NCBI RefSeq assembly: GCF_001541345.2
Contig: NZ_LMVL02000002.1
Location: forward strand, 248,001 to 312,000
Source of the DNA: Gillisella vitis
Lineage (GTDB): Bacteria; Pseudomonadota; Alphaproteobacteria; Rhizobiales; Rhizobiaceae
Direction of reading: 5' to 3'
Length of the DNA: 64,000 nucleotides
Below, piece after piece: positions 16,199 through 45,842 of this stretch. The position numbers and the translations under genes were made by a program. The notes beneath the pieces are model-generated. The model saw only the letters and a list, made by a program, of their open reading frames with translations. It was not told where the DNA came from and ran no database searches. Each line of letters begins with the position of its first letter. Within the stretch, counting starts at the first letter, position 1.

Positions 16199-16225
16199 AC
16201 CTCAATACATGAAAGGACCAACGCC

Positions 16226-19843: not shown

Positions 19844-19845
19844 TC

Positions 19846-20543: not shown

Positions 20544-20553
20544 GGGCGCGGCC

Positions 20554-23759: not shown

Positions 23760-23770
23760 GGGCGCTGGCC

Positions 23771-24064: not shown

Positions 24065-24067
24065 TTC

Positions 24068-25441: not shown

Positions 25442-26127
25442 GCTTGTTCAAACGACCGGCAGCCCATTACGGCAAGACGCCGCAACCCGAAACACCCTAT
25501 CAGAAGGCCGCACAGGTTTGGGACGAGCGTATTGGCTCGGCCCGCGTGCAGGCGAAAAACTGGAGGTTCATGGCGTTCGGAAGCCTGATCCTGTCAGCAG
25601 GCTTTGCCACAGCACTCGTCTGGCAGTCCACGCGTGGCACCGTCGTGCCGTGGGTCGTACAGGTCGACAAGCTCGGCCAGGCGCAGACCGTCGCCGCCGC
25701 CACGGCCGACTATCGTCCCACCGATCCGCAGGTGGCATGGCATCTGGCGCGATTCATCGAGCAGGTCAGGAGCATTCCCGCCGATCCCATCATCGTCAGA
25801 CAGAACTGGCTCCGCGCCTATGACTGGACGACGGATCGCGGCGCGACAGCGCTGAACGACTATGCGCGCAGCAACGACCCATTCACCAAGGTCGGCAAGC
25901 AGCAGGTTGCCGTCGAGGTGTCGAGCGTTATTCGTGCGTCTCCCGACAGCTTCCGTGTCGCCTGGATCGAGCGACGCTACGAGAACGGCCAGCTTTCCAC
26001 TACCGAACGATGGACCGCGATCCTGACCATCGTGATCCAGCCGCCCCGCGATGCCGAACGGCTCAAGTCCAATCCCCTCGGCATCTACGTCAACGCGATT
26101 TCATGGTCGAGGGAGATGGGCGAATGA
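25438..26127 (+). CDS. trbF: TrbF (VirB8-like)
   Basis: Protein of 229 residues with a cytoplasmic N-terminus containing the conserved P-x-x-P-Y-x-x-A-x-Q-x-W-D-E motif, one membrane span (about 42-62) and a periplasmic NTF2-like domain. Assembly factor of the Trb channel. It overlaps trbL and trbG by 4 bp each. Confidence 0.93.
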   Translation: MSLFKRPAAHYGKTPQPETPYQKAAQVWDERIGSARVQAKNWRFMAFGSLILSAGFATALVWQSTRGTVVPWVVQVDKLGQAQTVAAATADYRPTDPQVAWHLARFIEQVRSIPADPIIVRQNWLRAYDWTTDRGATALNDYARSNDPFTKVGKQQVAVEVSSVIRASPDSFRVAWIERRYENGQLSTTERWTAILTIVIQPPRDAERLKSNPLGIYVNAISWSREMGE

Positions 26128-27143: not shown

Positions 27144-28309
27144 GCGAGGCCAACAACCGCGAAGATGCAACCCACGCCCGCGGTCTTGTTCCACCGATGC
27201 GCTTGCGCGCAGAACCGCCGCGCGTCACCCGGCTATCGCGCAAGGTGCTCGCCGGCCTTGGCCTGGTCGCGTCGCTCGGTATCGGCGGCGCATTGATCTA
27301 TGCGCTTCAGACTCGAGATCGCGGCAATGGTGGGGAAGAGCTCTACTCGACCGAGAACCGGACCACTGCCGACGGCCTGGCAGGTTTGCCGCGAGACTAT
27401 ACCGGTCCCATCCTGGGGCCGGCTTTGCCGGGTGATCTCGGCCGTCCAATCCTCAGTGCACGGGATCGTGGTCAGCCTGTCGTCGTGCCGACGATGGCGA
27501 CTCCGAATGTCGATCCGGCCGAGCAACGACGCCTCGCCGAAGCGGAAGCTGCCCGAACCAGCCGCGTGTTCTTCCAGACAGAAACACGGACGACGGCAAA
27601 CGCGATAACGCCCAACGCGAATACGACGCCGAATCTTGCCGGTCTCGATCAGGCCGGCGCTCCCACGGCACAGGACCGGCAGGCCGCCTTCCTCAACGCT
27701 GCCGTCGACCGCCGCACCGTTGCAGCCGATCGCGTGATGCCGCCGGCGTCGCCCTATGTGCTGCAGGCCGGTTCGGTGATATCCGGAGCACTTATCACCG
27801 GCATTCGCTCCGATCTCCCCGGCCAGATTACCGCCCAGGTCACCGAGAACATGTACGACAGCCCGACCGGCCGCATTCTGCTTGTGCCGCAGGGCACCCG
27901 CATTATTGGCCAATATGACAACAATGTCGGCTTCGGCCAGAGGCGTGTCCTCCTGGTCTGGAACCGGCTGATATTCCCGAATGGACGATCCATCGTTCTT
28001 GAACGACAGCTTGGCGCCGATACGCAGGGCTACGCCGGTCTCGAGGATGGGGTCGACTACCACTGGTGGGATCTGGCGAAGGCAGCCGGTCTCTCGACGC
28101 TGCTCTCGGTTGGTGCAGAACTCGCCATGGACGACGAGGACCGGCTGATCCAGGCCATCCGCAACGGTGGCCAGGATACGATCAATGATGCCGGACAACA
28201 GATCATCCGCCGCCAGCTCAATGTCGCGCCGACGCTGACCATCCGGCCGGGTTTCCCGGTCAGGATCGTTGTCACGCGCGACCTTGTGATGGAGCCCTAC
28301 AGAGGTTGA
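27140..28309 (+). CDS. trbI: TrbI (VirB10-like)
   Basis: Protein of 389 residues with a cytoplasmic N-terminus, one membrane span (about 36-55), a Pro/Thr-rich linker, and a C-terminal VirB10 beta-barrel domain (VLQAGSVISGALITGIRSDLPG, LLVPQGTRIIGQYDN). It bridges the inner and outer membranes in the Trb core complex. Last gene of the intact trb run. Confidence 0.95.
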   Translation: MSEANNREDATHARGLVPPMRLRAEPPRVTRLSRKVLAGLGLVASLGIGGALIYALQTRDRGNGGEELYSTENRTTADGLAGLPRDYTGPILGPALPGDLGRPILSARDRGQPVVVPTMATPNVDPAEQRRLAEAEAARTSRVFFQTETRTTANAITPNANTTPNLAGLDQAGAPTAQDRQAAFLNAAVDRRTVAADRVMPPASPYVLQAGSVISGALITGIRSDLPGQITAQVTENMYDSPTGRILLVPQGTRIIGQYDNNVGFGQRRVLLVWNRLIFPNGRSIVLERQLGADTQGYAGLEDGVDYHWWDLAKAAGLSTLLSVGAELAMDDEDRLIQAIRNGGQDTINDAGQQIIRRQLNVAPTLTIRPGFPVRIVVTRDLVMEPYRG

Positions 28310-31004: not shown

Positions 31005-31523
31005 TCAATTGAGTGACGTATCTAAGCGCCGAAACGTGCTGCGATGGAACACCAGGGGTTCGACATGCGGATTGATGCTGAAGAGGTGTAGGCGTAGAAG
31101 TATGATCTGATGATCACCGGCTTCAATCGTTTCGTGGATCGAGCATTCTATGACCATTGCTGCGTCGGAAACGAAAATTGCGCCCGCACGACTTGTTTCC
31201 CAGCTTATGTCCCGGAACCGATCAATTCCTTTGGCGGCGAGGCTGCTGCAAATGCCATGCTGTTCTGAGCCGAGTACGCTCAATCCGAGCCGTTCAGCGG
31301 TTTTCAGCACTGGCCAGGTTGAAGAGTTGTTCTGGATGCAGACCGAAACCAGGGGCGGGTCGAGAGAAACGGTGGTGAAGGATGCTACGGCCATGCCGGC
31401 CGGTTTGCCCTCTATTAATGCACATAACGCGGTTACGCCGCTCGGGAAGTACCCAAAGGCATTGCGCAAAGTGAGGGGGTCAAGTTGAGTCTGCTCTTGG
31501 TCTTTCATGATGATTTCTTTCAT
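31005..31523 (-). CDS. Flavin reductase (two-component monooxygenase partner)
   Basis: Protein of 172 residues of the flavin reductase-like (HpaC/NtaB) family. Key segments are LRNAFGYFPSGVTALCA, VASFTTVSLDPPLVSVCI and N-N-S-S-T-W-P-V-L. It would supply reduced FMN to the LLM monooxygenase in the same operon. Starts at 31523 and 31508 are both possible. It is the last gene of the minus-strand operon that begins at 34182. Confidence 0.85.
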   Translation of the reverse strand: MKEIIMKDQEQTQLDPLTLRNAFGYFPSGVTALCALIEGKPAGMAVASFTTVSLDPPLVSVCIQNNSSTWPVLKTAERLGLSVLGSEQHGICSSLAAKGIDRFRDISWETSRAGAIFVSDAAMVIECSIHETIEAGDHQIILLRLHLFSINPHVEPLVFHRSTFRRLDTSLN

Positions 31524-31555
31524 TTTCTTGCTGGTCGAACCCCTATCTCGGGTTT

Positions 31556-31897
31556 TTATTGGACGCTGGGAAGAAACGTCGCGGCTACCATCGGCATGCA
31601 GGCGACCGGGGAAAGGCAGACCGGAATGTCAACGGCGGCTGCAACCGCTCGCTGATGGCGGAACAAGCTGCCACCTGTTCCGCCAATCGCGCGGACACCG
31701 CAAGCGAAAAGCTCTCGCGCCAACCCGATGACCAGATCCTCCTCCGCTACATCCCCTGGATGCAGCGACCGGTAAAGGACCGGATAGGAATAGCTCGAAG
31801 GATTGCCGACGTCGCCAGGCTCGCCGCCATCAATGGCGAGAATTCCGATCGCGTAACCGTAGGATTCTGCGGCTGGTCGCGTAACGTATTTCGGCAT
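31556..31897 (-). pseudogene. Asp/Glu/hydantoin racemase-like gene, truncated
   Basis: It encodes 113 residues with ggagg before ATG 31897. The N-terminal half looks like racemase-family proteins: YGYAIGILAIDG, a P-S-S-Y-S-Y-P-V segment, then FACGVRAIGGTGGSLFRHQ and C-L-S-P. It stops at TAA 31556 just where relatives continue with a second domain. After the stop the same frame still reads K-P-E-I-G-V, the expected continuation. I infer a nonsense mutation followed by loss of the C-terminal half. Family assignment is tentative. Confidence 0.5.
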
Positions 31898-31925
31898 TGA
31901 ATTCGAAACCTCCGTCCCTTCTCGT

Positions 31926-32861
31926 TCAGCCTTTTCGCCGCCTGGATGTCCCCGCTTCCGGCGGTCCTGTCTTGATGGCGGCCGCATAGGCATCGAGGAC
32001 TTGTTCCAGGGTGGCATCCTTCCGGCCGACGAAAGCTTCGCGCAGCCCGAGTCTTGCCGAGGCCCAGAGCCTGCGGCCTGCGGCCTCAGTCATGATAGGA
32101 TCGAGCTCCATGGCGCGGATGTCTGTGGCGATCTCATCCATCTCAACGGCACGGCGTTCCGAATGAAGGACGTCGGTCAGGATGCACATGCCGACGAAAT
32201 CGCTGAACTTGGTCTTGTCCATCGAGCCGAAGAGCCCGGTCATCACCTCGCCGCGCACGCCCTGCAGCGTCGCGATGGTGAATGCCTCAACCACCAGCGC
32301 CTCTATTCCCTTGGTCACCACGCTGCGCAGCATCTTGACCATGGCGGCGTCGCCGGCTCGGTCATTCGCCACATCTATCGTCATCCCGCGCGGTATGAAC
32401 AGCTCGGCAAAGCGGCTAACCCCGGAACCGGAGCAGTAGAGTGTCACCGGCGCGCCGTAGATCGCCACGGATCCCATTAGGTTGGCGTCGACATAGAGGC
32501 CGCCCCCAGCCTCGATTGCTGCTGCGATCTGCCTCTTCTTCGACGGTGTCGAGGCGGAGATGTCCACATAGAGAGTGCCGGGCTTCAGAAAGGAGGTGGC
32601 CTCGCGCGCGACCTCAAGCGCATTGGCGACCAGGACGGCGGAAAAGATCACGTCACTTGCGCCGCAAAGCTCCGCCAGCGTATCCATGGTCGTCGCACCA
32701 GCCTCTCCGGCGAAGCGAAGAAATGCATCCGAATAGGGCGGTCGGTTGGTGCGGCCGTTGCAGAATACCAGCAGCCGCATTGAGGGCTGCTCCTTCAGAT
32801 GCTTTGAGAAGCAGGAGGCCGCCTCGCCGAAGCCGATGAATCCGACAGTAAGATCCGACAT
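31926..32861 (-). CDS. NAD(P)-dependent dehydrogenase, 6PGDH-like with DUF1932
   Basis: Protein of 311 residues. A Rossmann start, V-G-F-I-G-F-G-E-A-A, lies at residues 6-15. A middle region with YVDISASTPSKKRQIA and YVDANLMGS is typical of beta-hydroxyacid dehydrogenases, and a C-terminal DUF1932 helical domain follows. A lysine in V-K-M-L-R matches the usual catalytic position. It probably oxidises a hydroxyacid intermediate. It lies 7 bp downstream of the monooxygenase gene in one operon. Confidence 0.82.
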   Translation of the reverse strand: MSDLTVGFIGFGEAASCFSKHLKEQPSMRLLVFCNGRTNRPPYSDAFLRFAGEAGATTMDTLAELCGASDVIFSAVLVANALEVAREATSFLKPGTLYVDISASTPSKKRQIAAAIEAGGGLYVDANLMGSVAIYGAPVTLYCSGSGVSRFAELFIPRGMTIDVANDRAGDAAMVKMLRSVVTKGIEALVVEAFTIATLQGVRGEVMTGLFGSMDKTKFSDFVGMCILTDVLHSERRAVEMDEIATDIRAMELDPIMTEAAGRRLWASARLGLREAFVGRKDATLEQVLDAYAAAIKTGPPEAGTSRRRKG

Positions 32862-32868
32862 GATGCTA

Positions 32869-34182
32869 TCACCTCAAGTTCTGACGTAGCGTGGGGCCCT
32901 CGTAGGAAGTCCGCATCAGCCCGCGTTTTTGCAGGATTGGCACCACCGAGCGAGCGAACTGCTCCCAAGTCCCGGGAGACACTGTGGGCGTCAGGATGAA
33001 ACCGTCGCAGCCGCCAGCGGTGAACATCATCTCCAACTGATCGGCCACCTGCTCGGGCGTACCAACGACCTGAGGAGCAAGCTCGCTGGTCGCGAAGCGC
33101 TTGGCCGCTTCCCCGATAGTAAGGCCCTCGGCCTTGGTGCCCTGGAGGATAACGTCGAGCGAGCCGCGTGAACCTTCCTCCAGTTGCAAGTCCAGAAGAG
33201 ACTGGTCGGGCGTGTATTTCGAAAGATCGCTGCCAACATGCGAGGACATCAACGACATGCCGAGTTCCGGATCGACTAGGCTGTTGACATAGGCCTGCTT
33301 CTCCCGCGCAATCGATTCCGTCTCGCCGATGATCGGGTCGACGGACGGCAAGACGGCGCAATCGTCCGGATTGCGCCCGGCAGCGGCAAGGGCTTCACGC
33401 ATCTCGGCGCGGAAGGCGACCATTTCGCGGGTGCTATGCTGCAGCGTGAAGATCATTTCAGCCCAGCGGGCGGCAAAAGCGCGGCCAGGTCCGGAAGAGC
33501 CAGCCTGCATGATAACAGGATGCCCTTGCGGCGAGCGTGGAACGGTGAGCGGTCCGCGTGTTTTCACCCACTTGCCTTTGTAGTCGACGTAGCGGACCTT
33601 GGAAGGATCGGCGAAGACACCGTTTTCCTTGTCCATCACCAACGCGCCGTCTTGCCAGCTGTCCCAGAGATGCATGCATGCATCCACCACCTCGTGGGCT
33701 TTTTCGTATCGCTCACTGCGGCCGGGCATCGCCTCAAGCCCGAAATTGCGCGCTTCGGTGCTGCTGGCGGAAGTCACGACATTCCATGCCATACGGCCGC
33801 CACTCAATACGTCGAGCGTGCCGAGGACGCGGGCGATCTGGTAGGGATTGACAAACGTCGTCGAAAGCGTCGCGCCGAGACCGATATGCTTTGTGACCCG
33901 CGACATCATCGCCAGGATGGGAATGGGATCGAGCAGACTGAGCGCCCCACCCTTGGACACGAAAGTGTTGAAGTTGCCGTTATAATAGTCGTACAGGCCC
34001 ATCACGTCGGCGAAGAACAGGCAATCGAAGAAGCCCCTTTCGAGCGTTTGGGCAAGTTGCTCATACCAAGCCGGGTCGAGAAAGCCGTTGTCGGTTTCTG
34101 GATGGCGCCACATGCCGTGATGATGACTGGTAGGCCCTGCCTTCAGAAATGCCACGAGGCGCATCTTTCGTTTATCTGCCAT
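32869..34182 (-). CDS. LLM-class FMN-dependent monooxygenase (NtaA/SnaA/DszA type)
   Basis: Protein of 437 residues of the bacterial luciferase-like fold. Diagnostic segments are MWRHPETDN near residue 25, FFADVMGLYD, P-I-P-I-L-A-M-M-S-R-V-T-K-H-I-G-L-G-A-T, R-M-A-W-N-V-V-T-S and PVIMQAGSSGPGR. This subfamily uses FMNH2 from a separate reductase to cleave C-S, C-N or similar bonds. A reductase gene ends the same operon. aaggga precedes the ATG, and a LacI-type operator lies 71 bp upstream. The substrate is unknown. Confidence 0.88.
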   Translation of the reverse strand: MADKRKMRLVAFLKAGPTSHHHGMWRHPETDNGFLDPAWYEQLAQTLERGFFDCLFFADVMGLYDYYNGNFNTFVSKGGALSLLDPIPILAMMSRVTKHIGLGATLSTTFVNPYQIARVLGTLDVLSGGRMAWNVVTSASSTEARNFGLEAMPGRSERYEKAHEVVDACMHLWDSWQDGALVMDKENGVFADPSKVRYVDYKGKWVKTRGPLTVPRSPQGHPVIMQAGSSGPGRAFAARWAEMIFTLQHSTREMVAFRAEMREALAAAGRNPDDCAVLPSVDPIIGETESIAREKQAYVNSLVDPELGMSLMSSHVGSDLSKYTPDQSLLDLQLEEGSRGSLDVILQGTKAEGLTIGEAAKRFATSELAPQVVGTPEQVADQLEMMFTAGGCDGFILTPTVSPGTWEQFARSVVPILQKRGLMRTSYEGPTLRQNLR

Positions 34183-34252
34183 GCTGTTCCCTTTTTGTCA
34201 CTGCGAAACCGGCATCTGTTCGACTCTTAACACCGATCCAGAATCACTTCAA

Positions 34253-34264
34253 TGAACCGGTTCA
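34253..34264. promoter_or_regulatory. LacI-type operator O1 (monooxygenase operon)
   Basis: Perfect palindrome TGAACCGGTTCA, 71 bp upstream of the monooxygenase start. On the minus strand TTGAAG directly follows it as a candidate -35. One of four identical sites in the cargo cluster. Confidence 0.8.
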
Positions 34265-34272
34265 TCAATCGG

Positions 34273-35499
34273 TCATTTTTTTAGTTCGTTCGTCGTGAGT
34301 ATACGCTCCATGCGCATAACGAGCCCAAAAGAGAGCCAGCACAGAAGAATGCTGATAAGGGCGAGAACCGGCATGCCCGTCACTTGCCCGTCGAGGCGCT
34401 CACGCAGCAAGGCGGCCGAACTCGCTGCGCCCGCAGCCGAAGCGATGCTCGTTATTGCCGATACGAGGCACTGATACGCGATCCGGTCTTCCGGTTCCGC
34501 GATGCGGCTTGCTGTTGTCTGGGCCACCGTGCTGCGGGCAAGCTGGGCCGCCAGCAGCATTCCAAGCACAAAAGCCATGGCCGGCATCGGTTGATGCAGA
34601 AAGAAGGCATAAGAAAGCAATGCAGTGAGAACGAGGCCCGCCGCCAATGAGGCCGCCACCGTGCCGATCCGGTCGATGACCCAACCGGTACCGCCGGTGG
34701 CAACAAAGGAAAGCACACCTCCTACAAGATAGATGTAACCCAGTTCCGCTGTCGAGAAGCTGAGGTTCGTGAGAGCATAGGCGCTGATATGCGGCGAAAT
34801 CAGGAAAGTCGCGTAAGAAGCGCCGGCCGTCAGCATGAGGCCAGTTTTTCCGCCGGGCTTGGCGACAGCATTGAAGACATTGTCGACGGTCAGACGAACA
34901 CCGGCCAACCCAGCCTGCGTCGACCCGAACACGCCGAACAAGACAGGCAGAGACAACACGACATAAAGGCACGCGAGTAAGCCAAATGCAGATTGCCAGG
35001 AACCCGAAAGAGTCTGAACGGTCAACGAGATCGGCGCACCGAGCAGGAGCGCGAAGCCGTAAGCTCCGATGATCGCGCTCACGGCCCGACCTCGGGCCGC
35101 GTCGCTCGTCAGGTCAGACGCTGTGGCGATTACCAAGGCAAGCAAGGGACCGGAACAAAAGCCTGCCGCTACCCGGGCCGTCAACACCGTGGTAAAGCTC
35201 GCATGCGGAAACACGCCGATTACGCCGGTGGCCACAGCTATGGCCAGAAGCGCAAGCATAAGGGATCGGCGTCGATCGACTGTACCCAGGAAGAAGGCGC
35301 CCACTATGCCGCCGAGCCCTGCCGCGCCGTTGAAACAGACGCTGGTTAGCGCCACGCGGTGAACAGGAATTCCGAGATCGGCAGCCATGAAAGGGCCGAG
35401 CGGAAACACGATGACCGATCCGAGCGCATTTGTGAATGCGATCAGTCCAAGCAGTGCTACGAGAATAATATTGTGCTTTTTTCGCCTTGATCTAGTCAT
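34273..35499 (-). CDS. MFS transporter
   Basis: Protein of 408 residues with about 12 membrane segments and the MFS loop motif D-R-R-R-S-L near residue 75. The N-terminus is short and basic. It is divergent from the lacI-type gene and shares its operator region, so it probably moves the substrate or a product of this cluster. Import or export cannot be decided. Confidence 0.85.
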   Translation of the reverse strand: MTRSRRKKHNIILVALLGLIAFTNALGSVIVFPLGPFMAADLGIPVHRVALTSVCFNGAAGLGGIVGAFFLGTVDRRRSLMLALLAIAVATGVIGVFPHASFTTVLTARVAAGFCSGPLLALVIATASDLTSDAARGRAVSAIIGAYGFALLLGAPISLTVQTLSGSWQSAFGLLACLYVVLSLPVLFGVFGSTQAGLAGVRLTVDNVFNAVAKPGGKTGLMLTAGASYATFLISPHISAYALTNLSFSTAELGYIYLVGGVLSFVATGGTGWVIDRIGTVAASLAAGLVLTALLSYAFFLHQPMPAMAFVLGMLLAAQLARSTVAQTTASRIAEPEDRIAYQCLVSAITSIASAAGAASSAALLRERLDGQVTGMPVLALISILLCWLSFGLVMRMERILTTNELKK

Positions 35500-35541
35500 C
35501 GCAATCTTCGATGCTATTGTAAAATTTCTTCAATTTGCATG

Positions 35542-35553
35542 TGAACCGGTTCA
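35542..35553. promoter_or_regulatory. LacI-type operator O2 (MFS/lacI divergent promoter)
   Basis: Perfect TGAACCGGTTCA between the divergent MFS and lacI-type genes. On the minus strand it overlaps TTCACA, which is followed 18 bp later by TACAAT, a plausible MFS promoter. This would give autoregulation of the regulator as well. Confidence 0.8.
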
Positions 35554-35578
35554 TCATATGGGCTGTCCAGGGGGGATT

Positions 35579-36619
35579 ATGCGCAAGAACGAGAAGCGGC
35601 AGACCGTGCGACTGCGGGATGTTGCGCAAACTGCCGGTGTATCGGTTGGCACCGTGTCGCGGGTCCTGAACAATAATCCGACAGTTTCGGAAGAGGTTCG
35701 CCGGAAAGTCGAAGCGGTTATGAAGGCGCTCGGATACGAGGCGAATATCGTCGCTCAGAGCCTGCGCGGCAGCACCACAAAACTGATCGCTTGCGCCATT
35801 CGGGATTTCGACATTCCCCAGTTCGCCCAGTACATTAAGGAAGCGGAGCAGGTCTTCCGCGAGCGCGGCTATACATTCATCCTCTCGGCCACCACCAACA
35901 AGCCGGAAGTAGAGGTGTCGCTTCTGAAAGCCTTCGAGCGACGAAAAGTGGATGGTATCATGATGACCGTCAGCGATGAGGCAAATGCCAGCGTCAATGA
36001 GGCGTTGATGCGCGCGCCATGTCCGGTTCTGCTCATCGATCGCGACCATATCAAGACCCTGGACCGGGTCACTGTGGATCACCTCAATGGTACCCGCACA
36101 GCGATATCGCATTTGATCGAGCGCGGGCACCGGCACATCGCACTGCTGGTTGGGGATACCCGCGCCTTTCCCTCTTACAGCCGTGTCGCCGGCTTCCGGG
36201 AGGCATACCAGATCCACGGCGTCGATCCGGCAATGGGAACCATCCGCGACCGAGTTATCGAACAGGAGGACGCGTTCCGCGAAACCATGGCGCTGTTTAG
36301 CTCGTCGGTGCCGCCAACCGCCATCGTCGCCGCATCGATGGGAGCCCTGCCTGGTTGCCTGAAGGCGCTCAGGGCGCTGCGGCGCGAGGTCGGCAAAGAG
36401 GTATCGGTCGTGGCAGGCAACGATTCGGACCTTGCGGAACTCTATACGCCTCCGATCACCGCCCTGAAGTCCGATCTCGCGGAACTCGCCCGGCATGCTT
36501 CCGCCATGCTGCTTGACCGAATTGAAGGCAAAGCGTCGGGTATCGGCCGAGTGGTGACGCTTCCGACGACTCTCGTGATACGGCAATCCTGCTGGCCCGT
36601 GCAGGACGCTGAAGACTGA
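35579..36619 (+). CDS. LacI-family transcriptional regulator
   Basis: Protein of 346 residues with the LacI HTH (RLRDVAQTAGVSVGTVSRVL, about residues 11-30) and hinge helix, then a periplasmic-binding-like sensor domain (LIDRDHIKTLDRVTVDH, I-E-R-G-H-R-H-I-A-L-L-V-G). I chose ATG 35579 because ggggg precedes it and the HTH falls at the normal distance. The frame is open further upstream but across the operator. It is the evident regulator of the four local TGAACCGGTTCA operators. The ligand is unknown. Confidence 0.9.
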   Translation: MRKNEKRQTVRLRDVAQTAGVSVGTVSRVLNNNPTVSEEVRRKVEAVMKALGYEANIVAQSLRGSTTKLIACAIRDFDIPQFAQYIKEAEQVFRERGYTFILSATTNKPEVEVSLLKAFERRKVDGIMMTVSDEANASVNEALMRAPCPVLLIDRDHIKTLDRVTVDHLNGTRTAISHLIERGHRHIALLVGDTRAFPSYSRVAGFREAYQIHGVDPAMGTIRDRVIEQEDAFRETMALFSSSVPPTAIVAASMGALPGCLKALRALRREVGKEVSVVAGNDSDLAELYTPPITALKSDLAELARHASAMLLDRIEGKASGIGRVVTLPTTLVIRQSCWPVQDAED

Positions 36620-36627
36620 AGGCTCCT

Positions 36628-37977
36628 TCAAAACCGATGCTCCTCGGACATGCGTATCGCTGCCATCGCTAGTGATGCGGCGAAAGACGATCCCGGCCAC
36701 CACTTCCGCGCCGACGTTTGCCCGCGTCCGGGAAAGGGGATATTTGCCCAGGGTGCACCGAGAGCGCGGCATGCGAGATGCTTGCCGAGCGTGGTGCCAA
36801 GCCCAAGACCGCGGCCGCTGAGCCCAAAGCCGACCAAAAAACCCGGCTGCGGTTCCTCGATACGAGGATATTGGTCACGGGTGAGATCGACCCACCCGCT
36901 CCATCGTTCGAAAACCGGCGCAGAGGAAAGCTGCGGGAAAACCTCAGTCAGCCGCCGTGCCGCCGCGTCCGGATCGGCGCCACGCTCTCCCGCTGCCGGA
37001 CCGGAAAGTGTGACGACGATTTGCCCCCCGCTGGTGCGGCGGATTCCCGACGGGAGCTTGCGGGTCTCGGTGACTGCGGTGGCGGAGGGCAGGATGCCCT
37101 CAATCTGTTCCACAGAAAGAGGTTCGGTCGCGGCTTCGTGCACGCGCACCGGCAGGAGCGTTCGACGATAGGCTGGCAGTAGCCGCCGGAGTCCGAGGCC
37201 GGCAGTGACGACGACGGTCCGGCAGCGGATCGCGCCGCGCCCGGCAGTCACGAAGAAGCCATTACCGGATTGCACAATACCGCTAACGGGGCTTTGCTCG
37301 AAGACGAGGCCCCCGAGGCTTGCACAACTGCGGGCAAGCCCGCGGGCATAGGCAAGGGGATTTAGCGTACCGCCGCGTGGCTCGACAAGGACGCAAGGGT
37401 AGAATCCGCCACCGATCGCAGTTGCCGCCTCTTCCCTGTCGAGCAGAGGAAGATCGACGCCGCGGGCAGCCCACCAATCTCGCCGGCTCCGCAAAGACAC
37501 CTCGCCGGCAGGCGCATGAGCGGCGAAAAGCAGGCCGTTGCGCACTGCGTCGCAATCGATGCCGTAGTGTGCGATGAGATCGAAAACCAGGTCGGGCGAG
37601 CGGGCGGCCACGTTGATTAGCCTTGTGCCGGCCTCCTTGCCTAGGTTTGCAAGTGCCACGTCCGGCTCGGTGCGGAGGTAGGGAACGACTTGGCCGAAGC
37701 TGCGACCGCTTCCACCGGAGCCAATCGTCTCGGCCTCGACAAGGCAGACTGAAGCGCCGCCTGCCGCCAGATGGAGAGCCGCCGAGGCGCCCATGATACC
37801 GCCGCCGATAACGACGATATCAGTCTCCATTTCCCTATCGAGAGAGGAGGCGGAAAGCGGCGGCTCACCGGCATCGGTATAAGTGCGTGGCAGAGTGCGA
37901 GCAAGTAAATCCCTCTCAGGTAAATTTATCATGGCAGCCCATAGCGTTTGATCAGGTTGAGAAGAATTCGGCGACAT
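36628..37977 (-). CDS. FAD-dependent oxidoreductase (DAO family)
   Basis: Protein of 449 residues with the dinucleotide fold D-I-V-V-I-G-G-G-I-M-G-A-S-A-A near residue 54 and a DAO domain ending F-G-L-S-G-R-G-L-G-L-G, the FAD-binding C-terminal signature. DAO enzymes oxidise amino acids or other secondary amines. A second start at 37932 (M-I-N-L) is possible. It is convergent with the lacI gene and divergent from the ABC operon, with operator O3 39 bp upstream. Confidence 0.85.
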   Translation of the reverse strand: MSPNSSQPDQTLWAAMINLPERDLLARTLPRTYTDAGEPPLSASSLDREMETDIVVIGGGIMGASAALHLAAGGASVCLVEAETIGSGGSGRSFGQVVPYLRTEPDVALANLGKEAGTRLINVAARSPDLVFDLIAHYGIDCDAVRNGLLFAAHAPAGEVSLRSRRDWWAARGVDLPLLDREEAATAIGGGFYPCVLVEPRGGTLNPLAYARGLARSCASLGGLVFEQSPVSGIVQSGNGFFVTAGRGAIRCRTVVVTAGLGLRRLLPAYRRTLLPVRVHEAATEPLSVEQIEGILPSATAVTETRKLPSGIRRTSGGQIVVTLSGPAAGERGADPDAAARRLTEVFPQLSSAPVFERWSGWVDLTRDQYPRIEEPQPGFLVGFGLSGRGLGLGTTLGKHLACRALGAPWANIPFPGRGQTSARKWWPGSSFAASLAMAAIRMSEEHRF

Positions 37978-38015
37978 TATCAGTTACGCCTAACATCCAA
38001 TCAGAGTTAGGTCAA

Positions 38016-38027
38016 TGAACCGGTTCA
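38016..38027. promoter_or_regulatory. LacI-type operator O3 (FAD oxidase)
   Basis: Perfect TGAACCGGTTCA 39 bp upstream of the FAD oxidase start. Confidence 0.8.
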
Positions 38028-38200
38028 CCATGCTGCTGCCTTGGTGCTCATGGCAGATGTGAAAGCTTCCATAGCTTGTGAGTTCGCTAAGAGCAGGCGG
38101 TCTCCGCATAAAAATGGCCAAAAGGCCCTTGATCTTCCCACTAAGCAGGCGAACTCGCCATAAAGAGGAGCAATTGATTATTTTTTAAGCACATAAATTA

Positions 38201-38212
38201 TGAACCGGTTCA
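38201..38212. promoter_or_regulatory. LacI-type operator O4 (ABC operon)
   Basis: Perfect TGAACCGGTTCA 76 bp upstream of the substrate-binding protein gene. Confidence 0.8.
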
Positions 38213-38287
38213 TTGCATAATGTTTAGACGTGTGTTTAACTTGCTGCATTGCAAAAGTTCGTCTCCCTCTACTGAAAGGGCCTTCTC

Positions 38288-39277
38288 GTGACCGTTCGCA
38301 ATCTTATTCATGCATTCGCCGTCATCACCGCCTGTTTCGCCATGCCGCTTGCCGGCTATGCGCAAGACAGGCCACGTCTCGATTTCGCCGGTTCGGTAAC
38401 CTGGATTGGCCAAGTACCGATCCTAGTCGCAATCAAGAAGGGCTTTTTCAAAGAGCAGGGCATCGATGTCGACGTGCAGGTAATCGTCAACTCTTCCGAT
38501 CGCATCAGAGCGCTAACCGCAGGCGATGCGGCGTTCAGCAATCTCGGCCGCGTCGCGGTTATCAGCGAAATGGCGCGCGGAAACGAGAGTTTTTCCTTCT
38601 TTGCCAATGTTGACGATTCCCCTGGTCAGGAAGGTTGCTGGGCTCGTCCCGGCATTACCTCAGTGGCTGACCTGAAGGGCAAGGCGGTTGCCGCCAATTC
38701 CTCTGCCGAGATCACACTCGCCGGTCTTTTAGCCGATGCCGGACTGAAACTCGGCGATCTTGACTATCGCAACCTCCCGGCAACCGAGATGGCCGCGGCA
38801 CTCAGCCATGGCGATATCGAGGCAGCCTGCGTCTGGCAGCCTCTCCTAACGCGGCTGAAGGAGGCCGTTCCCCAAGGTAAGCTGCTCGGCACCGATCGCG
38901 AAACCGAAATGTTCCGCCGTTTCGGCACCATGGCCGCAGGTGATATTGTCATCGTCTCCCGCGAAGTGGTCGAAAAATATCCCAATCAGGCCCGAGCCAT
39001 TGCCGCTGGTGTGCTCAAAGGCGCCGATCTCACTATCGAGAACCCTCAGGAGGCTGCCGCAATGGTCGCCGAATATTTCAAGCAGTCCCCAGAGGAGATG
39101 CTGAAGGCCATCCAAAGTTTCCAGTATTTCGGGAGTAAGGATTGGGAGAACCATCTCAAAAAACATACAGAGCAGATGCAGTATCTCGCCGACATGCTGC
39201 ATGAGGCTGGCAAGATTCCGGAGCGCCCTGACACAGCCAAGTGGCTCGACACAAGTTTCGTACCCAAGGGAAACTAA
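38288..39277 (+). CDS. ABC transporter substrate-binding protein (NMT1/SsuA/TauA-like)
   Basis: Protein of 329 residues with a signal peptide (hydrophobic 9-25, cleavage after Y-A-Q). The mature protein has the NMT1-like folds: GFFKEQGIDVDV, then SVADLKGKAVAANSSAE. It starts with GTG 38288 after gaaaggg. The family binds sulfonates, nitrate, taurine, pyrimidine precursors and similar small anions or heterocycles, and the ligand here is open. It is the first gene of an SBP-permease-ATPase-dehydrogenase operon. Confidence 0.88.
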   Translation: MTVRNLIHAFAVITACFAMPLAGYAQDRPRLDFAGSVTWIGQVPILVAIKKGFFKEQGIDVDVQVIVNSSDRIRALTAGDAAFSNLGRVAVISEMARGNESFSFFANVDDSPGQEGCWARPGITSVADLKGKAVAANSSAEITLAGLLADAGLKLGDLDYRNLPATEMAAALSHGDIEAACVWQPLLTRLKEAVPQGKLLGTDRETEMFRRFGTMAAGDIVIVSREVVEKYPNQARAIAAGVLKGADLTIENPQEAAAMVAEYFKQSPEEMLKAIQSFQYFGSKDWENHLKKHTEQMQYLADMLHEAGKIPERPDTAKWLDTSFVPKGN

Positions 39278-40101
39278 TGATGGCTGAGTTTTCTCAACAG
39301 ACACTGTCTCCTTCCCGAACTGCAAGCTATATCTCAATGGTCAAACCAAGCCGTACGACGATGATCAGCTTGGCATCGGTTCTAGCGTTCCTTCTTCTTT
39401 GGGCGGTGGTGACCGGAACGGGCCTAGTATCAAAGCTCTTCCTTCCCTCTCCAGGCGAGGTGGCTCAGGCTGCGATGAAGCTAGTCGCCTCGGGAGGCCT
39501 CTGGGTGGCGATCCTGTCCTCTTCAGTCCGGGTCTTCTTGGGCTTCCTACTCGCTATAGTCATTGCCGTGCCGCTCGGCGTTGCCATGGCCGTCAACGAA
39601 ACAATTAGGGCAGTGTTCGCGCCTTTCATCTCACTGTTGCGTCCTTTGCCTTCGATCACCTGGATTCCGCTAACAATCTTGTGGCTTGGCATCGGCGAGG
39701 GACAGAAAGTGCTGATCGTCTTCTTGGGCTCGTGGATCTACGTTCTCCTTTCTACATACGAGGCAACGCGTCGCGTCGATCCAATCCTGATCCGGGCGGC
39801 GCGTAATCTTGGTGCCTCCGACTTTACGGTGATGCGGGAAGTCATTTTCCCGGGGGCGCTCCCGGGTATCCTTGGTGGGCTGAAGGTCACCTTAGCGATC
39901 GCTTGGTCCTGCGTTCTGTCGGCTGAGATGGTCGCCGCCCGCAACGGCCTGGGCGCGATCATTTGGGAAGCCAAGGAATGGGGCGACATGACCATGGTGC
40001 TAGTCGGCATGGTGTGCATTTCGCTGACGGTTTTGGTGGCCGATTTGGTAGCCAATAAGGTCGAACGGTTGCTGCTGCCATGGGAACGCCATAGGCGATA
40101 A
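39277..40101 (+). CDS. ABC transporter permease (SsuC/TauC-like)
   Basis: Protein of 274 residues with six membrane segments and the EAA loop E-A-T-R-R-V-D-P-I-L-I-R-A-A-R-N-L-G-A (about residue 164). ATG 39277 overlaps the upstream stop. Inner-membrane part of the importer. Confidence 0.9.
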   Translation: MMAEFSQQTLSPSRTASYISMVKPSRTTMISLASVLAFLLLWAVVTGTGLVSKLFLPSPGEVAQAAMKLVASGGLWVAILSSSVRVFLGFLLAIVIAVPLGVAMAVNETIRAVFAPFISLLRPLPSITWIPLTILWLGIGEGQKVLIVFLGSWIYVLLSTYEATRRVDPILIRAARNLGASDFTVMREVIFPGALPGILGGLKVTLAIAWSCVLSAEMVAARNGLGAIIWEAKEWGDMTMVLVGMVCISLTVLVADLVANKVERLLLPWERHRR

Positions 40102-40120
40102 AAAGAAGGAGAATTGTGTC

Positions 40121-40915
40121 ATGACTGCCATTCTCACGGCTGAACACATCACCAAATCCTACCGGCTAAAGGACAGCGAACTCGTTGCCGTCCAGAACCT
40201 CTCGCTGGAGGTGCAATCCAATGAGCTGCTATGCATCCTCGGTGCCTCAGGCTGCGGGAAGTCTACCCTGCTCAGCCTTTTTGCGGGATTTTCCGCGCCG
40301 ACAAGCGGAAAGATCCTGCTGCGTGGCGAGCCCATTACCGGCATCGATCCGCGCTGCGGCATGGTGTTCCAATCCTATGCCCTGTTTCCGTGGAAGACGG
40401 TTCGGCAAAACGTGGAGTTTCCGTTGCGCATGCGCGGAGCGCGGCGCAGGGAAAGGCGGGAGCTCGCCGAGCAACTCATCGACATGGTGCAACTCACCGG
40501 CTTTGCGGATCACTACCCTGCCGAGCTTTCGGGGGGCATGCAGCAGCGCGTCACAATCGCCAGAAGTCTCGCGGCTGATCCCGAGGTGCTGCTGATGGAC
40601 GAGCCCTTCGCGGCACTCGATGCCATGACGCGGCAGGTCATGCAGACCGAACTCCTGAGGATCCAGGAAGCGAGCGGCAAGACTATCGTCTTCATCACCC
40701 ACAATCTCGACGAGGCGCTGATCCTTGGTCACCGTATCGTCGTCATGTCAGCCCGGCCGGGGCGCATCAAGACGATCTTTGACAACGAGCTGCCGCGTCC
40801 GCGCGGCGTGGCAGTCCAGACTTCCGTCCCCTATGCAGCGCTCAAGACGCGCATCTGGGAACATGTCGAGGAGGAGGTGATGCAGCATATCGCCGCTTCC
40901 CGGCTCGCCGGATGA
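40121..40915 (+). CDS. ABC transporter ATPase (SsuB/TauB-like)
   Basis: Protein of 264 residues with Walker A G-A-S-G-C-G-K-S-T-L (about residue 42), Q-loop VFQSYALFPW, signature L-S-G-G-M-Q-Q-R (about residue 138), Walker B V-L-L-M-D-E-P-F and switch His in I-T-H-N. An aagaaggag precedes the start. It powers the importer. Confidence 0.93.
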   Translation: MTAILTAEHITKSYRLKDSELVAVQNLSLEVQSNELLCILGASGCGKSTLLSLFAGFSAPTSGKILLRGEPITGIDPRCGMVFQSYALFPWKTVRQNVEFPLRMRGARRRERRELAEQLIDMVQLTGFADHYPAELSGGMQQRVTIARSLAADPEVLLMDEPFAALDAMTRQVMQTELLRIQEASGKTIVFITHNLDEALILGHRIVVMSARPGRIKTIFDNELPRPRGVAVQTSVPYAALKTRIWEHVEEEVMQHIAASRLAG

Positions 40916-41925
40916 TGCCCTTGGAGACGGAACGCAGGATCGCTATTGCCGACCTCCATCGACGAGTTCTGGCCATTCTCATTGAGGCGGGGGTAGACGG
41001 GAACCATGCCGATATCCTCGCCGGTGTCATCACCGCCGCAGAAAGGGACGGCGCGAGAGGCCACGGCTTGCTGCGGCTGCCTGGCTATCTCGCGAGCGTC
41101 CGAACCGGCTGGATTGACGGTCGGGCTGTGCCAAAGATCACTGAGGTGGGGCCGGCCTTTCTCTCGATTGATGCCGGCAATGGCTTTGCGACCGCGGCGC
41201 TGGCCGCGGCGCGTCCGCTGCTCATCTCCAACGCAAGGGAGTACGGTATCGCGCTTCTGGCGATCCGCAATTCTCATCATCTCGGCGCGCTTTGGCCGGA
41301 TGTCGAGCCGCTGGCCGAGGCCGGCCTCGTCGCGCTGTCCACGGTGAACGCCCGCAGCCGGATACTCGTCTGGGGCGCTGGAAGGAAAGTGCTCGGTACA
41401 AATCCAATGTGCTTCGCCTTCCCTCGCCGCGACGGCCCGCCTATCGTCTGGGACCAAGCGTCCAGCGCTGCCAGCCAGGGCGAGGTGCTTCTCGCGGCGC
41501 GGCGGAACGAAAAACTCGCCCCGGGTATCGGCAACGATTCCGCTGGCCGTCCGGCCACTGACCCCGCGAAGGTCCTCGACGGCGGGACGCTCAACCCATT
41601 CGGCGGCCACAAGGGCGCGTCGATCGCACTCATGGTTGAGGTGCTGGCGGCGGGGCTGACGGGCGGACGATTCGGCTTCGAAGACAGGTCAGCACGCTAT
41701 CCCGGCGTGATTTCCGGCAATGCCGGCCAATGCGTGATAGCTATTGACGCGACCCGCAGCAACGAGGCCTTCGGCTCACGTATCGAAATACTGCTTAGCG
41801 AACTTCGCGCCTCGGGCGTTTCCCGGTTTCCCGGTGAACAACGATACCGGCAGCGCGCGCATTCCGAGGCTATGGGCATCGCGCTCGGGCCGGAGGAATG
41901 GACGATAATAGAACGAACGTCCTGA
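40912..41925 (+). CDS. Ldh2/malate dehydrogenase-type NAD(P) oxidoreductase
   Basis: Protein of 337 residues of the Ldh_2 (YlbC/AllD/ComC) family. It has an R-G-H-G motif near residue 44, NSHHLGALW, and G-T-N-P-M-C-F-A-F-P near residue 162. The family reduces or oxidises 2-oxoacids and hydroxyacids such as ureidoglycolate, sulfolactate and malate. It overlaps the ATPase gene (ATGATG), so transport and oxidation are coupled in expression. Its TGA at 41923 is directly followed by the antiporter remnant. Confidence 0.88.
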   Translation: MMPLETERRIAIADLHRRVLAILIEAGVDGNHADILAGVITAAERDGARGHGLLRLPGYLASVRTGWIDGRAVPKITEVGPAFLSIDAGNGFATAALAAARPLLISNAREYGIALLAIRNSHHLGALWPDVEPLAEAGLVALSTVNARSRILVWGAGRKVLGTNPMCFAFPRRDGPPIVWDQASSAASQGEVLLAARRNEKLAPGIGNDSAGRPATDPAKVLDGGTLNPFGGHKGASIALMVEVLAAGLTGGRFGFEDRSARYPGVISGNAGQCVIAIDATRSNEAFGSRIEILLSELRASGVSRFPGEQRYRQRAHSEAMGIALGPEEWTIIERTS

Positions 41926-42750: not shown

Positions 42751-43829
42751 CTAGTGGACTGATTCCAACGCTTGGTGCCCCCGTTTGACGGCGGCGATGA
42801 TCTCATCCGGGTCTGCTTTCCAGATGAATGGTTTCGGTTCCTGATTGTGCTCTTTGACGAAGCGGTTGATGGCCGCCTGCAGGTCGACGACGGAATGAAA
42901 GACGCCATGCTTCAGCCGTCTTCGTGTCAGTTTGGCGAAGAAGCCCTCGACGGCGTTCAACCATGAGCAGGATGTTGGAACGAAGTGGAATGTCCATCGC
43001 GGATGCCTTGAAAGCCAGGCGCGAACCTTTGGTTGCTTGTGGGTCGCGTAATTGTCGAGGATGACGTGAACGGCCTTATCCTTCGGCAGGTCTGCCTCTA
43101 TGGCGTTGAGGAAGCGGATGAACTCCTGATGCCGGTGGCGCTGCATGTTGCGACCGATGACCGATCCGTCGAGAATGTTGAGAGCGGCAAACAATGTCGT
43201 CGTGCCGTGGCGTTTGTAGTCATGCGTCATCGTGCCGCCGCGCCCCTTCTTCAGGGGCAGACCCGGCTGTGTCCGGTCGAGCGCCTGGATCTGGCTCTTT
43301 TCATCGACGGACAAGACAATGGCATGGGCCGGTGGTGAGACGTAGAGACCCACCACATCATGGAGTTTCTCGGCAAAAGCTTTGTCGTTGGAGAGCTTGA
43401 AGCTGCGCCATCGATGCGGTACCAAGCCATGTTCATGCCAGATCTTGACGACGGAAGAGGCCGCGATCCCAACCGCTTTTGCCATGGCACGCACGGTCCA
43501 GTGCGTCGCCTCCTGTCGAGGCGGTTCCAGCGTCAGCGCAACAACCTGCTCTACCAGTTCGCCATCAAGAGGCGCGATGCCGGGCGGCCGGCTCTTGTCG
43601 CGCAACAGGCCATCGACACCCTCGGACATGAACCGCTCTTGCCAGCGCCAGACGCAAGGCTTGGATTTGCCGGTCGCCTCCATGATTGCAACGGTTCCAG
43701 GCCATCGCCGCTCATCAGGATGATCATCGCCCGCCACACATGCTTCTGCGGCGAACTGCGGGTCGCAACGATTGTCTCAAGCCGAACCCGGTCGGCAGCG
43801 GTAACGTCGAAAGTAATCCCTGTGCGCAT
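42751..43829 (-). pseudogene. IS630-family transposase with a frameshift
   Basis: The N-terminus (MRTGITFDVTAADRVRLE, to I-L-M-S-G-D-G-L) is in one frame and the rest (G-T-V-A-I-M-E-A-T-G-K-S-K to the end) in another. One G appears to be missing near 43697-43703 (ggcctggaacc instead of ggcctgggaacc). The catalytic DDE residues are visible: D in VLSVDEKSQIQALDR, D in V-H-V-I-L-D-N-Y-A-T-H and E in W-L-N-A-V-E-G-F-F. The break falls before the catalytic core, so either the copy is dead or it needs slippage. Confidence 0.8.
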
Positions 43830-44023: not shown

Positions 44024-44308
44024 ATGGCAAAGATCGAAACTACGCAAATTCGGAGAACAATCCGGCGACAGCAGTTGCGGGAGATGGTGCCGATGGCCGA
44101 CAGTACTATTTATGAAATGGAGCAGCGTGGCGAGTTTCCCCGCCGGTTCGCGCTCTCGCCACGTTGTATCGTTTGGGACCTGGCCGAGGTCGAGGCTTGG
44201 CTGATGGCACGGCGGGCTGCGCCGATCCGGCGTGCCCAACACCCTGATGTCACCAAGCGTAAAGCCCGCCCCGTCAAAGGGCAGGATCAAGCTCCATCAA
44301 GGGCATAG
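44024..44308 (+). CDS. AlpA-like DNA-binding protein (possible excisionase)
   Basis: Protein of 94 residues with the AlpA/HTH pattern LREMVPMADSTIYEMEQRGEFP, then F-x-L-S-P-R-C-I-V-W and D-L-A-E-V-E-A-W-L near residue 60, and a basic tail. ATG 44024 follows gggag. It is convergent with the integrase gene and overlaps its 3' end by 35 bp. AlpA proteins paired with P4-type integrases act as excision factors or int activators, and this role is inferred here. Confidence 0.75.
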   Translation: MAKIETTQIRRTIRRQQLREMVPMADSTIYEMEQRGEFPRRFALSPRCIVWDLAEVEAWLMARRAAPIRRAQHPDVTKRKARPVKGQDQAPSRA

Positions 44309-45530
44309 CTTGCGGCAAAAGCGCGGGGGCATACTTCCGGCCGTCGACCCAGGCATCAACGGTATCCGCCCACTGCTGCATCATATGCCGGCGCTGCACT
44401 TCATACTCGGCCTTGTTGTAGACGCCGCGCGATGAGCGCCCGTCCTCGTGCGCCAGGCACTTTTCGATCCAGTCGCTATTAAAGCCCAGCTCGTTTAACA
44501 GCGTCGAGCCCGTTCGCCGCAAATCATGGACGGTGAAAGGCTCCAGCGGCAGCCCCTCCTTCTTCGCCTGTTCGACGACGGCATAGGTGATCCGATTGAA
44601 GGTCGCGCGGGACATGGGCGCGTCCGCGTCGTACCGAGACGGCAGCAAGTATCGGGAGTTGCCGGCGCAGGTCTTGAGCGCGATCATGATGTCCAACGTC
44701 TGTCGGCACAGGTAGACGTTGTGTGGCTTCGACCGCTTCATGCGCTCCTTCGGGATGGTCCAGACGGCGTTGTCGAAATCGATCTCGTCCCACACCGCAT
44801 CCTGCAGCTCGCTCTTCCGAACCATGGTGAGGAGGTAGAGCTTCATGCCGAGGCGGATCGTCGGCAATGTCGCGACATGCTCGAGTTGCCTGAACATGAT
44901 ACGGATCTCGGTGGGCGAAAGCGCGCGGTCCTTCGGCGTAAAGGTAGCGATCGAGGCTGGACCGACGCCATCGGCCGGATTGGCGACCTTCTCGCCGTGC
45001 AGAATGGCATAGCCGTAGATCTGCTTCAGGATATCCCGCACATGGATAGCAGTTGCAGGCGCACCCCGTTCGACGATCTTGCCGCAGTGAGCGCGTAGAT
45101 CATCCGGTGTGATTTCCGTCAGGAGACGATTTCGCCAGACGGGCATGAGTTCGCGTTCGAAGATGGAGCGGCGCATAGCACGCGTGCTGTCGGCCATGGC
45201 CGCGTGGGTCAGCCATTTCTCGCCGAACTGGCCGAAACTCCTTGCTTCCTTGATTTGGCGCTTCTCCCGCTGCTTCTCGATGGCGGGGGACCGCCCCTCG
45301 GCGATCGCACGCCGCGCGTCGATGCATAGCTCGCGAGCCCTCGCGAGCGATATTCCGTCACGAGCATACCTACCGAGATAGACGGTCTCCCGTCTGCCAT
45401 TCAGCCGATAGTCGAGCCTGAATGAAATGGCGCCCGACGGCGCGACGCGCACATACATGCCGTCACGATCGGAAACCTTGTACATTTTGGCTTTTGGTTT
45501 CAAACACTTGAGTGCTGCATCGGTCAACAT
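44274..45530 (-). CDS. P4-type tyrosine integrase (guaA-targeting)
   Basis: Protein of 418 residues. It has an N-terminal DUF4102 arm-binding domain (LTDAALKCLKPKAKMYKVSD, then YLGRYARDGISLARAR), a SAM-like core-binding domain, and a catalytic domain. The active-site residues visible are R in T-M-V-R-K-S-E-L-Q (about 238), H-D-L-R-R-T-G-S (about 341-348), the H of C-L-A-H-E and Y in R-G-V-Y-N-K-A-E-Y. It lies directly downstream of guaA on the same strand, the standard layout for islands that integrate in the guaA 3' end. It inserts and excises the ICE. Confidence 0.93.
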   Translation of the reverse strand: MLTDAALKCLKPKAKMYKVSDRDGMYVRVAPSGAISFRLDYRLNGRRETVYLGRYARDGISLARARELCIDARRAIAEGRSPAIEKQREKRQIKEARSFGQFGEKWLTHAAMADSTRAMRRSIFERELMPVWRNRLLTEITPDDLRAHCGKIVERGAPATAIHVRDILKQIYGYAILHGEKVANPADGVGPASIATFTPKDRALSPTEIRIMFRQLEHVATLPTIRLGMKLYLLTMVRKSELQDAVWDEIDFDNAVWTIPKERMKRSKPHNVYLCRQTLDIMIALKTCAGNSRYLLPSRYDADAPMSRATFNRITYAVVEQAKKEGLPLEPFTVHDLRRTGSTLLNELGFNSDWIEKCLAHEDGRSSRGVYNKAEYEVQRRHMMQQWADTVDAWVDGRKYAPALLPQAMPLMELDPAL

Positions 45531-45824: not shown

Positions 45825-45842
45825 TCATTCCCACTCAATCGT
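45825..45842 (-). other. ICE attachment site at the guaA 3' end
   Basis: The last guaA codons (G-T-I-E-W-E-stop) read ACGATTGAGTGGGAATGA on the minus strand and are followed at once by ICE sequence. The guaA 3' end is a known integration target for genomic islands. The partner att copy must lie left of this window. The exact crossover bases cannot be fixed without it. Confidence 0.65.

Follow-up and report, generated by a model that had tools for sequence, protein, structure and literature searches.

Regulators of the LacI type are the textbook sugar-sensing family. The accessible part of a survey of LacI-family regulons places 176 of the 182 groups with assigned pathways in carbohydrate metabolism, the exceptions being mainly nucleosides, and describes most sites as even palindromes with a central CG and 72% of the regulators as autoregulating (PMC4052901). 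Here, we analyzed a 10.9-kb gene cluster of Gillisella vitis (genome size, 5.75 Mb), located at positions 31005–41925 of a 64,000-nucleotide stretch of contig NZ_LMVL02000002.1 (hereafter, the window), in which a LacI-type regulator stands amid genes for an importer and several oxidoreductases. The locus resembles the local regulons in that part of the survey (PMC4052901): the regulator is clustered with its putative targets and has a site at its own promoter, and the site is a perfect CG-centred palindrome, 30–140 bp upstream. Unlike the surveyed regulons, it is a cluster for oxidation, with a luciferase-like monooxygenase (LLM) and a D-amino acid oxidase (DAO)-type enzyme, and none of the gene families found in it belongs to a sugar pathway. 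This is unusual for a LacI-type switch, which in most cases governs the use of sugars.

In layout, as judged from gene content, the nearest described system is the breakdown of ethylenediaminetetraacetate (EDTA) and nitrilotriacetate (NTA). Like the EDTA/NTA operon of Chelativorans BNC1 (EmoA, EmoB and IdaA), in the part of its description available to us (PMC7312458), the cluster combines a monooxygenase dependent on reduced flavin mononucleotide (FMNH2), a flavin reductase, an oxidase and an importer; unlike that operon, it has an LLM nearer to BdsA than to EmoA, a LacI regulator, and additional DpkA-like and DUF1932 reductases. BdsA/DszA, the dibenzothiophene sulfone monooxygenase, is another point of comparison: the window LLM keeps its serine and most, but not all, of its contact residues, whereas the gene neighbours differ from those of BdsA/DszA systems. 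Among named families, AmaA and DpkA, both of cyclic imino-acid metabolism, come nearest to the DAO and the Ldh2-family reductase, respectively; the DAO scores well under the AmaA cut-off. Searches of open-access full texts listed no description of a pathway matching this gene set.

Exact palindromes at the promoter regions of the cluster

The initial annotation of the window had described four identical perfect palindromes, one in each promoter region of the cluster, and had placed the window's only LacI-type gene mid-cluster. Both descriptions hold: all four copies of the putative operator TGAACCGGTTCA are exact, and 1 of the 14 LacI-domain matches of the genome lies in the window (35579–36619). 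The gene families that it had assigned were all confirmed with Pfam and NCBIfam, but its list had missed a truncated racemase-like gene. The cluster comprises the following features, with the two types of relatives (A and B) described below.

31005–31523, minus strand: flavin reductase (PF01613, 118 bits)
31556–31897, minus strand: truncated Asp/Glu-racemase-like gene, 113 amino acids; a longer frame aligns with PRK07475 positions 5–119 of 246 and then meets a stop
31926–32861, minus strand: dehydrogenase resembling 6-phosphogluconate dehydrogenase, with DUF1932 (PF03446 and PF09130, NAD_binding_2/DUF1932; 55–61% identical to four type-B relatives)
32869–34182, minus strand: LLM, an FMN-dependent monooxygenase of the NtaA/DmoA family (TIGR03860, 512 bits, cut-off 279.7; 78–80% identical to four type-B relatives)
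34253–34264: putative operator TGAACCGGTTCA before the LLM operon, exact; TTGAAG directly after it on the LLM strand
34273–35499, minus strand: major facilitator superfamily (MFS) transporter (PF07690; in 9 of 9 relatives, 33–56% identical)
35542–35553: putative operator TGAACCGGTTCA in the divergent MFS/LacI promoter, exact; same place in four relatives
35579–36619, plus strand: LacI-family regulator (PF00356, 69.5 bits; 48–64% identical to four orthologues)
36628–37977 (likelier start 37932), minus strand: DAO-type oxidase dependent on flavin adenine dinucleotide (FAD) (PF01266, 202 bits; 44–55% identical to four relatives)
38016–38027: putative operator TGAACCGGTTCA before the DAO, exact; TTGACC directly after it on the DAO strand
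38201–38212: putative operator TGAACCGGTTCA before the importer operon, exact; same place in four relatives
38288–39277, plus strand: binding protein of the ATP-binding cassette (ABC) importer, NMT1 family (PF09084; 58–69% identical to five orthologues)
39241–40101, plus strand: permease of the ABC importer (PF00528)
40121–40915, plus strand: ATPase of the ABC importer (PF00005)
40912–41925, plus strand: Ldh2-family reductase, DpkA-like (Ldh_2 family)

The regulator consists of a LacI DNA-binding domain (PF00356) and a sensor domain, and matches LacI-type proteins over its full length. Its longest frame starts at 35387, and the alignment of orthologues favours a start at 35579; with the latter start all four TGAACCGGTTCA sites are intergenic, whereas a start at 35387 would enclose the site at 35542. 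The DAO start is likelier at 37932, because the relative at locus L131 begins there. Distances from operator centre to start codon range from 31.5 to 81.5 bp, or reach 89.5 bp with the DAO start at 37932, and the sites at 38016 and 38201 both lie between the divergent DAO and importer genes. As an even palindrome with a central CG, TGAACCGGTTCA is present at the promoters of the putative targets and at the regulator's own promoter. The racemase-like remnant sits within the LLM operon and is likely a deletion leftover.

The whole genome contains five exact copies of TGAACCGGTTCA and no copy of the reversed control pattern. The initial annotation had raised the possibility that the palindrome is frequent elsewhere in the genome; four of the five copies fall within the cluster. 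The fifth, on another contig (C18:250817; L042 position 10018), lies inside a frame at 9366–10190, a gene of the TIGR00282 metallophosphoesterase family. A first-order Markov model built on 224 kb of the host gave expected counts of 0.0006 per 10.9 kb and 0.31 per genome, as compared with the 4 and 5 found. When one mismatch was allowed, 27 genomic places matched (22 of them inexact), versus 8 for the control.

Regulator and operator recur with two oxidation modules

To locate relatives, GTDB contigs were scanned with the LLM, yielding 68 loci. Three of these contain the cluster: Bosea sp. OK403 (L043), Bosea psychrotolerans (L044), and an Enterovirga metagenome-assembled genome (L045). The cluster was not found at the other 65, several of which end at contig ends, so its absence there is weak evidence. 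In a sample of 67 genomes of the genus around OK403, the LacI regulator was found in four, namely OK403, B. psychrotolerans, L130 and L131, and L130 has the same layout as L043 and L044. In this layout (type B), LacI is divergent from genes for MFS, binding protein, permease, ATPase, LLM and DUF1932 dehydrogenase. The exact palindrome occurs twice in each of the four type-B loci, once in the LacI/MFS promoter and once in the importer promoter, and the type-B genomes hold 2, 2, 2 and 3 exact copies in all, two of them in the cluster in each case. Together with this genome, 12 of 14 exact copies thus lie within the cluster. A flavin-reductase gene, 23–32% identical to the window's, follows the DUF1932 gene in L043 and L044 and stands beside LacI in L045. 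No DAO, Ldh2 or racemase remnant was detected in the stretches read at the four type-B loci. In L043 and L044, a second importer and flavin-reductase gene adjoin the cluster, and in L043 this second importer cluster holds an alkanesulfonate monooxygenase scoring over its cut-off (625 of 518 bits).

A second type was found with a LacI profile built from five orthologues and run over 397 genomes of the order. Twenty-three genomes passed E 1e-75; five of them, including this genome, scored at least 523 bits, and the rest at most 334. The four new close relatives (523–576 bits) and L131 make five type-A loci (L131 and L157–L160), in which LacI, 48–51% identical to that of the window, is divergent from genes for an aminotransferase, MFS, DAO, 2-hydroxyacid dehydrogenase and importer. 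The aminotransferase and 2-hydroxyacid dehydrogenase are present in all five (72–89% and 70–88% identical to the L131 copies), and neither was detected in the cluster region of the window or in the type-B loci. No LLM was detected in the stretches read at the type-A loci. The DAO is present in four of the five; L160 has the type-A layout without it.

GGAACCGGTTCA or its complement, with one mismatch, stands in the LacI/aminotransferase promoter of four type-A loci, and that of L159 has GGAAACGGTTCA, with two mismatches. The relaxed form of the operator is chance-like genome-wide, so the argument for type A comes from position and orthology rather than from rarity. Three further observations were made at these loci. 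In L160, the short gap after the MFS gene opens with letters that look, on visual inspection, like the start of a DAO gene, as though a deletion had removed it. L158, L159 and L160 have a second inverted repeat of about 23 bp, with TGAAC...GTTCA half-sites, adjoining the LacI start codon. In L174 (genome G170), an exact TGAACCGGTTCA located about 11 kb away from LacI may mark an additional target.

Across all nine relatives, the operator is conserved with the orthologous regulator, with 0–2 mismatches. The constant parts of the ten loci are the regulator, the operator, the MFS protein and the importer, to which two different oxidation modules are attached. Among these ten, the LLM and DAO modules occur together only in the window, and no Ldh2 gene was found in the stretches read around the nine relatives. 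The initial annotation had proposed one LacI regulator and one operator type for the cluster, a pair that recurs in nine other genomes. Its suggested search for the same gene neighbourhood elsewhere recovered the LacI/MFS/importer core in these nine, but the full set in none of them. A chance or unrelated palindrome beside genes that are not co-regulated would fit the stray exact copies seen in four of the ten genomes, besides this genome's own; set against the 0.0006 copies expected in the cluster and the conservation of the site in place in other genera, it is extremely improbable.

The surroundings of the operator follow a common pattern. On the operon strand, TTG stands directly after the operator at 12 of 12 operon-facing sites (window sites 34253, 38016 and 38201, four type-B importer sites and five type-A sites), extended to TTGAC at six of them, as compared with 0 of 5 LacI/MFS divergent sites. 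The site at 35542 overlaps the −35-like TTCACA of a promoter-like site that matches at 10 of 12 positions (35545–35516, minus strand, the MFS strand); with 6 promoter-like sites of this grade found versus 3.9 expected, the overlap is weak taken alone. Operators that overlap or abut −35-like hexamers in this way would be the pattern expected of a repressor blocking the −35 region, and from it we infer repression.

Predicted chemistry of the encoded proteins

The closest solved relative of the LLM is BdsA/DszA (438 bits; next, 287 bits), with 48.5% identity to BdsA (211 of 435 aligned residues); the EDTA monooxygenase EmoA scores 185 bits. In the accessible part of the BdsA study (PMC5819316), the contacts to dibenzothiophene sulfone come from docking, and Ser139 is the proposed nucleophile. 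Five of the seven sulfone-contact residues reported there are the same in the LLM, one differs (V248, L247 in the LLM), and one is not alignable. The LLM has four of the six FMN-contact residues, Ser139 (S138 in the LLM) among them, and differs at the other two. It shares H315 with BdsA and with none of the remaining four chains in the alignment (two of these chains represent a single protein). No DszB/DszC-type partner is among the gene families found in the cluster.

These similarities raise the possibility of an organosulfur route, in which a BdsA/DszA-type, C–S-cleaving LLM and an organosulfur importer would act on a sulfur-containing amino acid, or on a sulfonate or sulfone, used as a sulfur or carbon source, while the DAO and Ldh2 proteins handle the amino-acid part. 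The retained sulfone contacts, serine and H315 are in keeping with such a route, as are the best NCBIfam match of the binding protein (the aliphatic-sulfonate family, below cut-off) and the second importer with flavin reductase beside the L043 and L044 clusters, including the L043 alkanesulfonate monooxygenase. However, the same LacI and importer occur in five relatives whose stretches, as far as read, contain no LLM; the cluster families found include neither a desulfinase nor a sulfite/cysteine gene; and two of the six FMN contacts of BdsA are changed. We consider this route, the foremost alternative to our own reading, possible but rather unlikely.

The LLM can also be compared with aminopolycarboxylate oxidation. 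By such an EDTA- or NTA-like route, a tertiary amine would lose a carboxymethyl-type group through the LLM and a secondary amine would lose one through the DAO, with each cleavage yielding an oxo acid for subsequent reduction or transamination. The LLM argues against it, with far fewer bits to EDTA monooxygenase than to BdsA. The EDTA importer is of another kind, which likewise counts against the route. In its favour are the shared layout of importer, EmoA/EmoB and IdaA, as far as the available part of the source gives it (PMC7312458), and the type-A modules, which carry an aminotransferase and a 2-hydroxyacid dehydrogenase nearest to the glyoxylate/hydroxypyruvate reductase GhrA (below cut-off). 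On balance, this route appears unlikely.

The nearest solved relative of the Ldh2 protein is the delta1-piperideine-2-carboxylate reductase DpkA (318 bits versus 125 for the next). The best solved match of the DAO, an L-amino acid deaminase, reaches only 55 bits. For the binding protein, the best is a taurine-binding protein (54 bits), and an AlphaFold model built from four sequences has a mean predicted local distance difference test score (pLDDT) of 34, too low to suggest a ligand. The importer binding proteins are 58–69% identical across the variants, which suggests, at the level of sequence, that they bind similar ligands.

The MFS protein has an exporter model as its best NCBIfam match, far below cut-off (110 of 525 bits). 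This match, and the position of the locus as cargo of an integrative and conjugative element (ICE), would suit an efflux or detoxification locus in which the LLM, flavin reductase and MFS protein modify and expel a toxic compound and the importer genes are incidental. All nine relatives keep the importer, LacI and the operator, which makes such a function very unlikely.

A model for regulated uptake and oxidation

The initial annotation had proposed a single uptake-to-oxidation route for an amine, sulfonate or heterocycle. The combination of an importer with oxidative enzymes stands, but not as a fixed set, since the LLM and DAO occur apart in relatives. Among amine, sulfonate, heterocycle and amino-acid-type options, an amino-acid-type compound is best supported by the predicted proteins, because the DAO is AmaA-like, the Ldh2 protein is DpkA-like, and the DAO operon of the relatives includes an aminotransferase and a dehydrogenase. 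Our preferred interpretation, held with moderate confidence, is that the cluster, repressed by LacI, serves to import a small amino-acid-type compound and to cleave it oxidatively, at a C–N bond by the DAO and at a C–N or C–S bond by the LLM.

The model starts from what the sequence contains, namely the operators, their rarity, their conservation with the regulator, and the gene families. Binding, the sign of regulation, the inducer, the substrate and the order of reactions would be as follows. Without inducer, the LacI protein (35579–36619), most likely a local repressor, would occupy the four TGAACCGGTTCA sites, each of which overlaps or directly adjoins a −35-like hexamer in its promoter (MFS/LacI, LLM, DAO or importer). 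Binding of the imported compound, or of a metabolite, to the LacI sensor domain would open the transcription units. The ABC importer (38288–40915) would bring in the small amino-acid-type compound, which would then be cleaved at C–N and/or C–S bonds by the DAO-type flavoenzyme and by the LLM, with the flavin reductase supplying FMNH2 to the latter. The resulting imino or oxo acids would be reduced by the DpkA-like Ldh2 and DUF1932 dehydrogenases, and the MFS protein may move the compound or an intermediate.

Several observations weigh against this model. On the side of chemistry, the nearest solved relative of the LLM works on a sulfone, not an amine, and the family matches fall below their cut-offs: the DAO to L-pipecolate oxidase AmaA (NF050086, 254.6 of 600 bits), the binding protein to SsuA/aliphatic sulfonate (TIGR01728, 127.1 of 163.5 bits), the type-A aminotransferase to its best family, aspartate transaminase (581–584 of 617), and the type-A dehydrogenase to GhrA (181–190 of 403). 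Relatives carry the LLM and DAO modules separately, so the two may act on different compounds, and neighbouring relatives are non-independent samples. As for the operator, one stray exact TGAACCGGTTCA each occurs off the LacI locus in genomes G1120, G142 and G170 (the G142 and G1120 copies fall within predicted genes or at their ends), and a third exact copy in G1108 lies outside its cluster; over all ten genomes, 12 of 17 exact copies fall in clusters. The relaxed pattern KGAACCGGTTCM is non-specific: across six genomes it matched 14 places, as compared with 11 for its reversed control, and G252 has none.

A more specific version may be imagined, in which a LacI branch off sugar control governs modular oxidation of an amino acid that is cyclic or S/N-substituted, such as a thiomorpholine- or pipecolate-like acid: a DszA-type LLM would open the ring at S or N, the amino-acid side would fall to an AmaA-like oxidase together with a DpkA-like imine reductase, and the ICE would have joined the two modules under one operator. 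We offer it as speculation of low probability. If the preferred model of repressed import and cleavage is true, a conserved LacI branch acting on amine- or organosulfur-type oxidation would widen what the family senses. Direct ligand screening for the substrate is feasible, given how well the operator, importer and regulator are defined. The cluster also suggests that an ICE can build up a catabolic route in which modules are exchanged while the sensor and importer stay fixed.

Wider searches

No LacI orthologue besides that of this genome was found in 385 genomes of the class (E 1e-90), 297 of the family, including three of the same genus (E 1e-80), or 398 of the phylum (E 1e-110), samples that overlap and were searched at different E thresholds. 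Four of the 18 lower-scoring genomes of the order sample (L161–L164, with L162 spanning only 5.2 kb) showed, beyond LacI, one weak LysR match and no cluster gene. Plasmid LLM relatives were rejected as carriers of the cluster: within the best 40 of 1,176 records, the top ones are 61–62% identical and have unrelated surroundings. Plasmid matches of the DAO, LacI, binding protein and DUF1932 protein were all below 60%, and no cluster was found in the four neighbourhoods opened, one of which is unannotated. One plasmid locus, with a 30% identical relative of the binding protein and an FAD oxidase, is presumably of the stachydrine type, a lead too weak to use. In L006, L008 and L011 (Mesorhizobium and Rhizobium plasmids), LLM relatives of 54–62% identity lie near ectB, and L006 and L008 also have ectoine-synthase genes; this LLM branch near ect genes perhaps has a biosynthetic use.

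The integrative and conjugative element

The initial annotation had placed the cluster on an ICE, in agreement with the integrase, relaxase, coupling-protein and Trb genes and with imperfect attachment (att) repeats about 73 kb apart.

14444–28309, plus strand: relaxase, coupling protein and Trb transfer genes of the ICE
42751–43737: DDE transposase gene adjoining the cluster
44274–45530, minus strand: tyrosine integrase of the ICE (PF00589, PF13356), adjoining guaA
45822–45845: probable attachment site at the 3′ end of guaA; its 13-bp core is found again near window coordinate −27530
45825–47387: guaA (802 of 400 bits)

RepA/ParA-type genes are also present on the ICE. The left att repeat is a diverged copy, imperfectly extended beyond the 13-bp core, and the 15-mer at guaA has a single match in the genome when up to one mismatch is allowed. 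From these features, the ICE would span about 73 kb, inserted at guaA with the cluster near its right end, and its boundary is probable. The GC content is 59.4% in the cluster, 59.6% in the chromosome flank and 64.2% in the transfer genes. The same ICE carries a SIR2–HerA pair, a candidate anti-phage system, in its left part (L114:13394–16976, contig C13; PADLOC, 860 and 1275 bits), and a Type IIG restriction-methylation gene (L115:952–3759; PADLOC, 916 bits).

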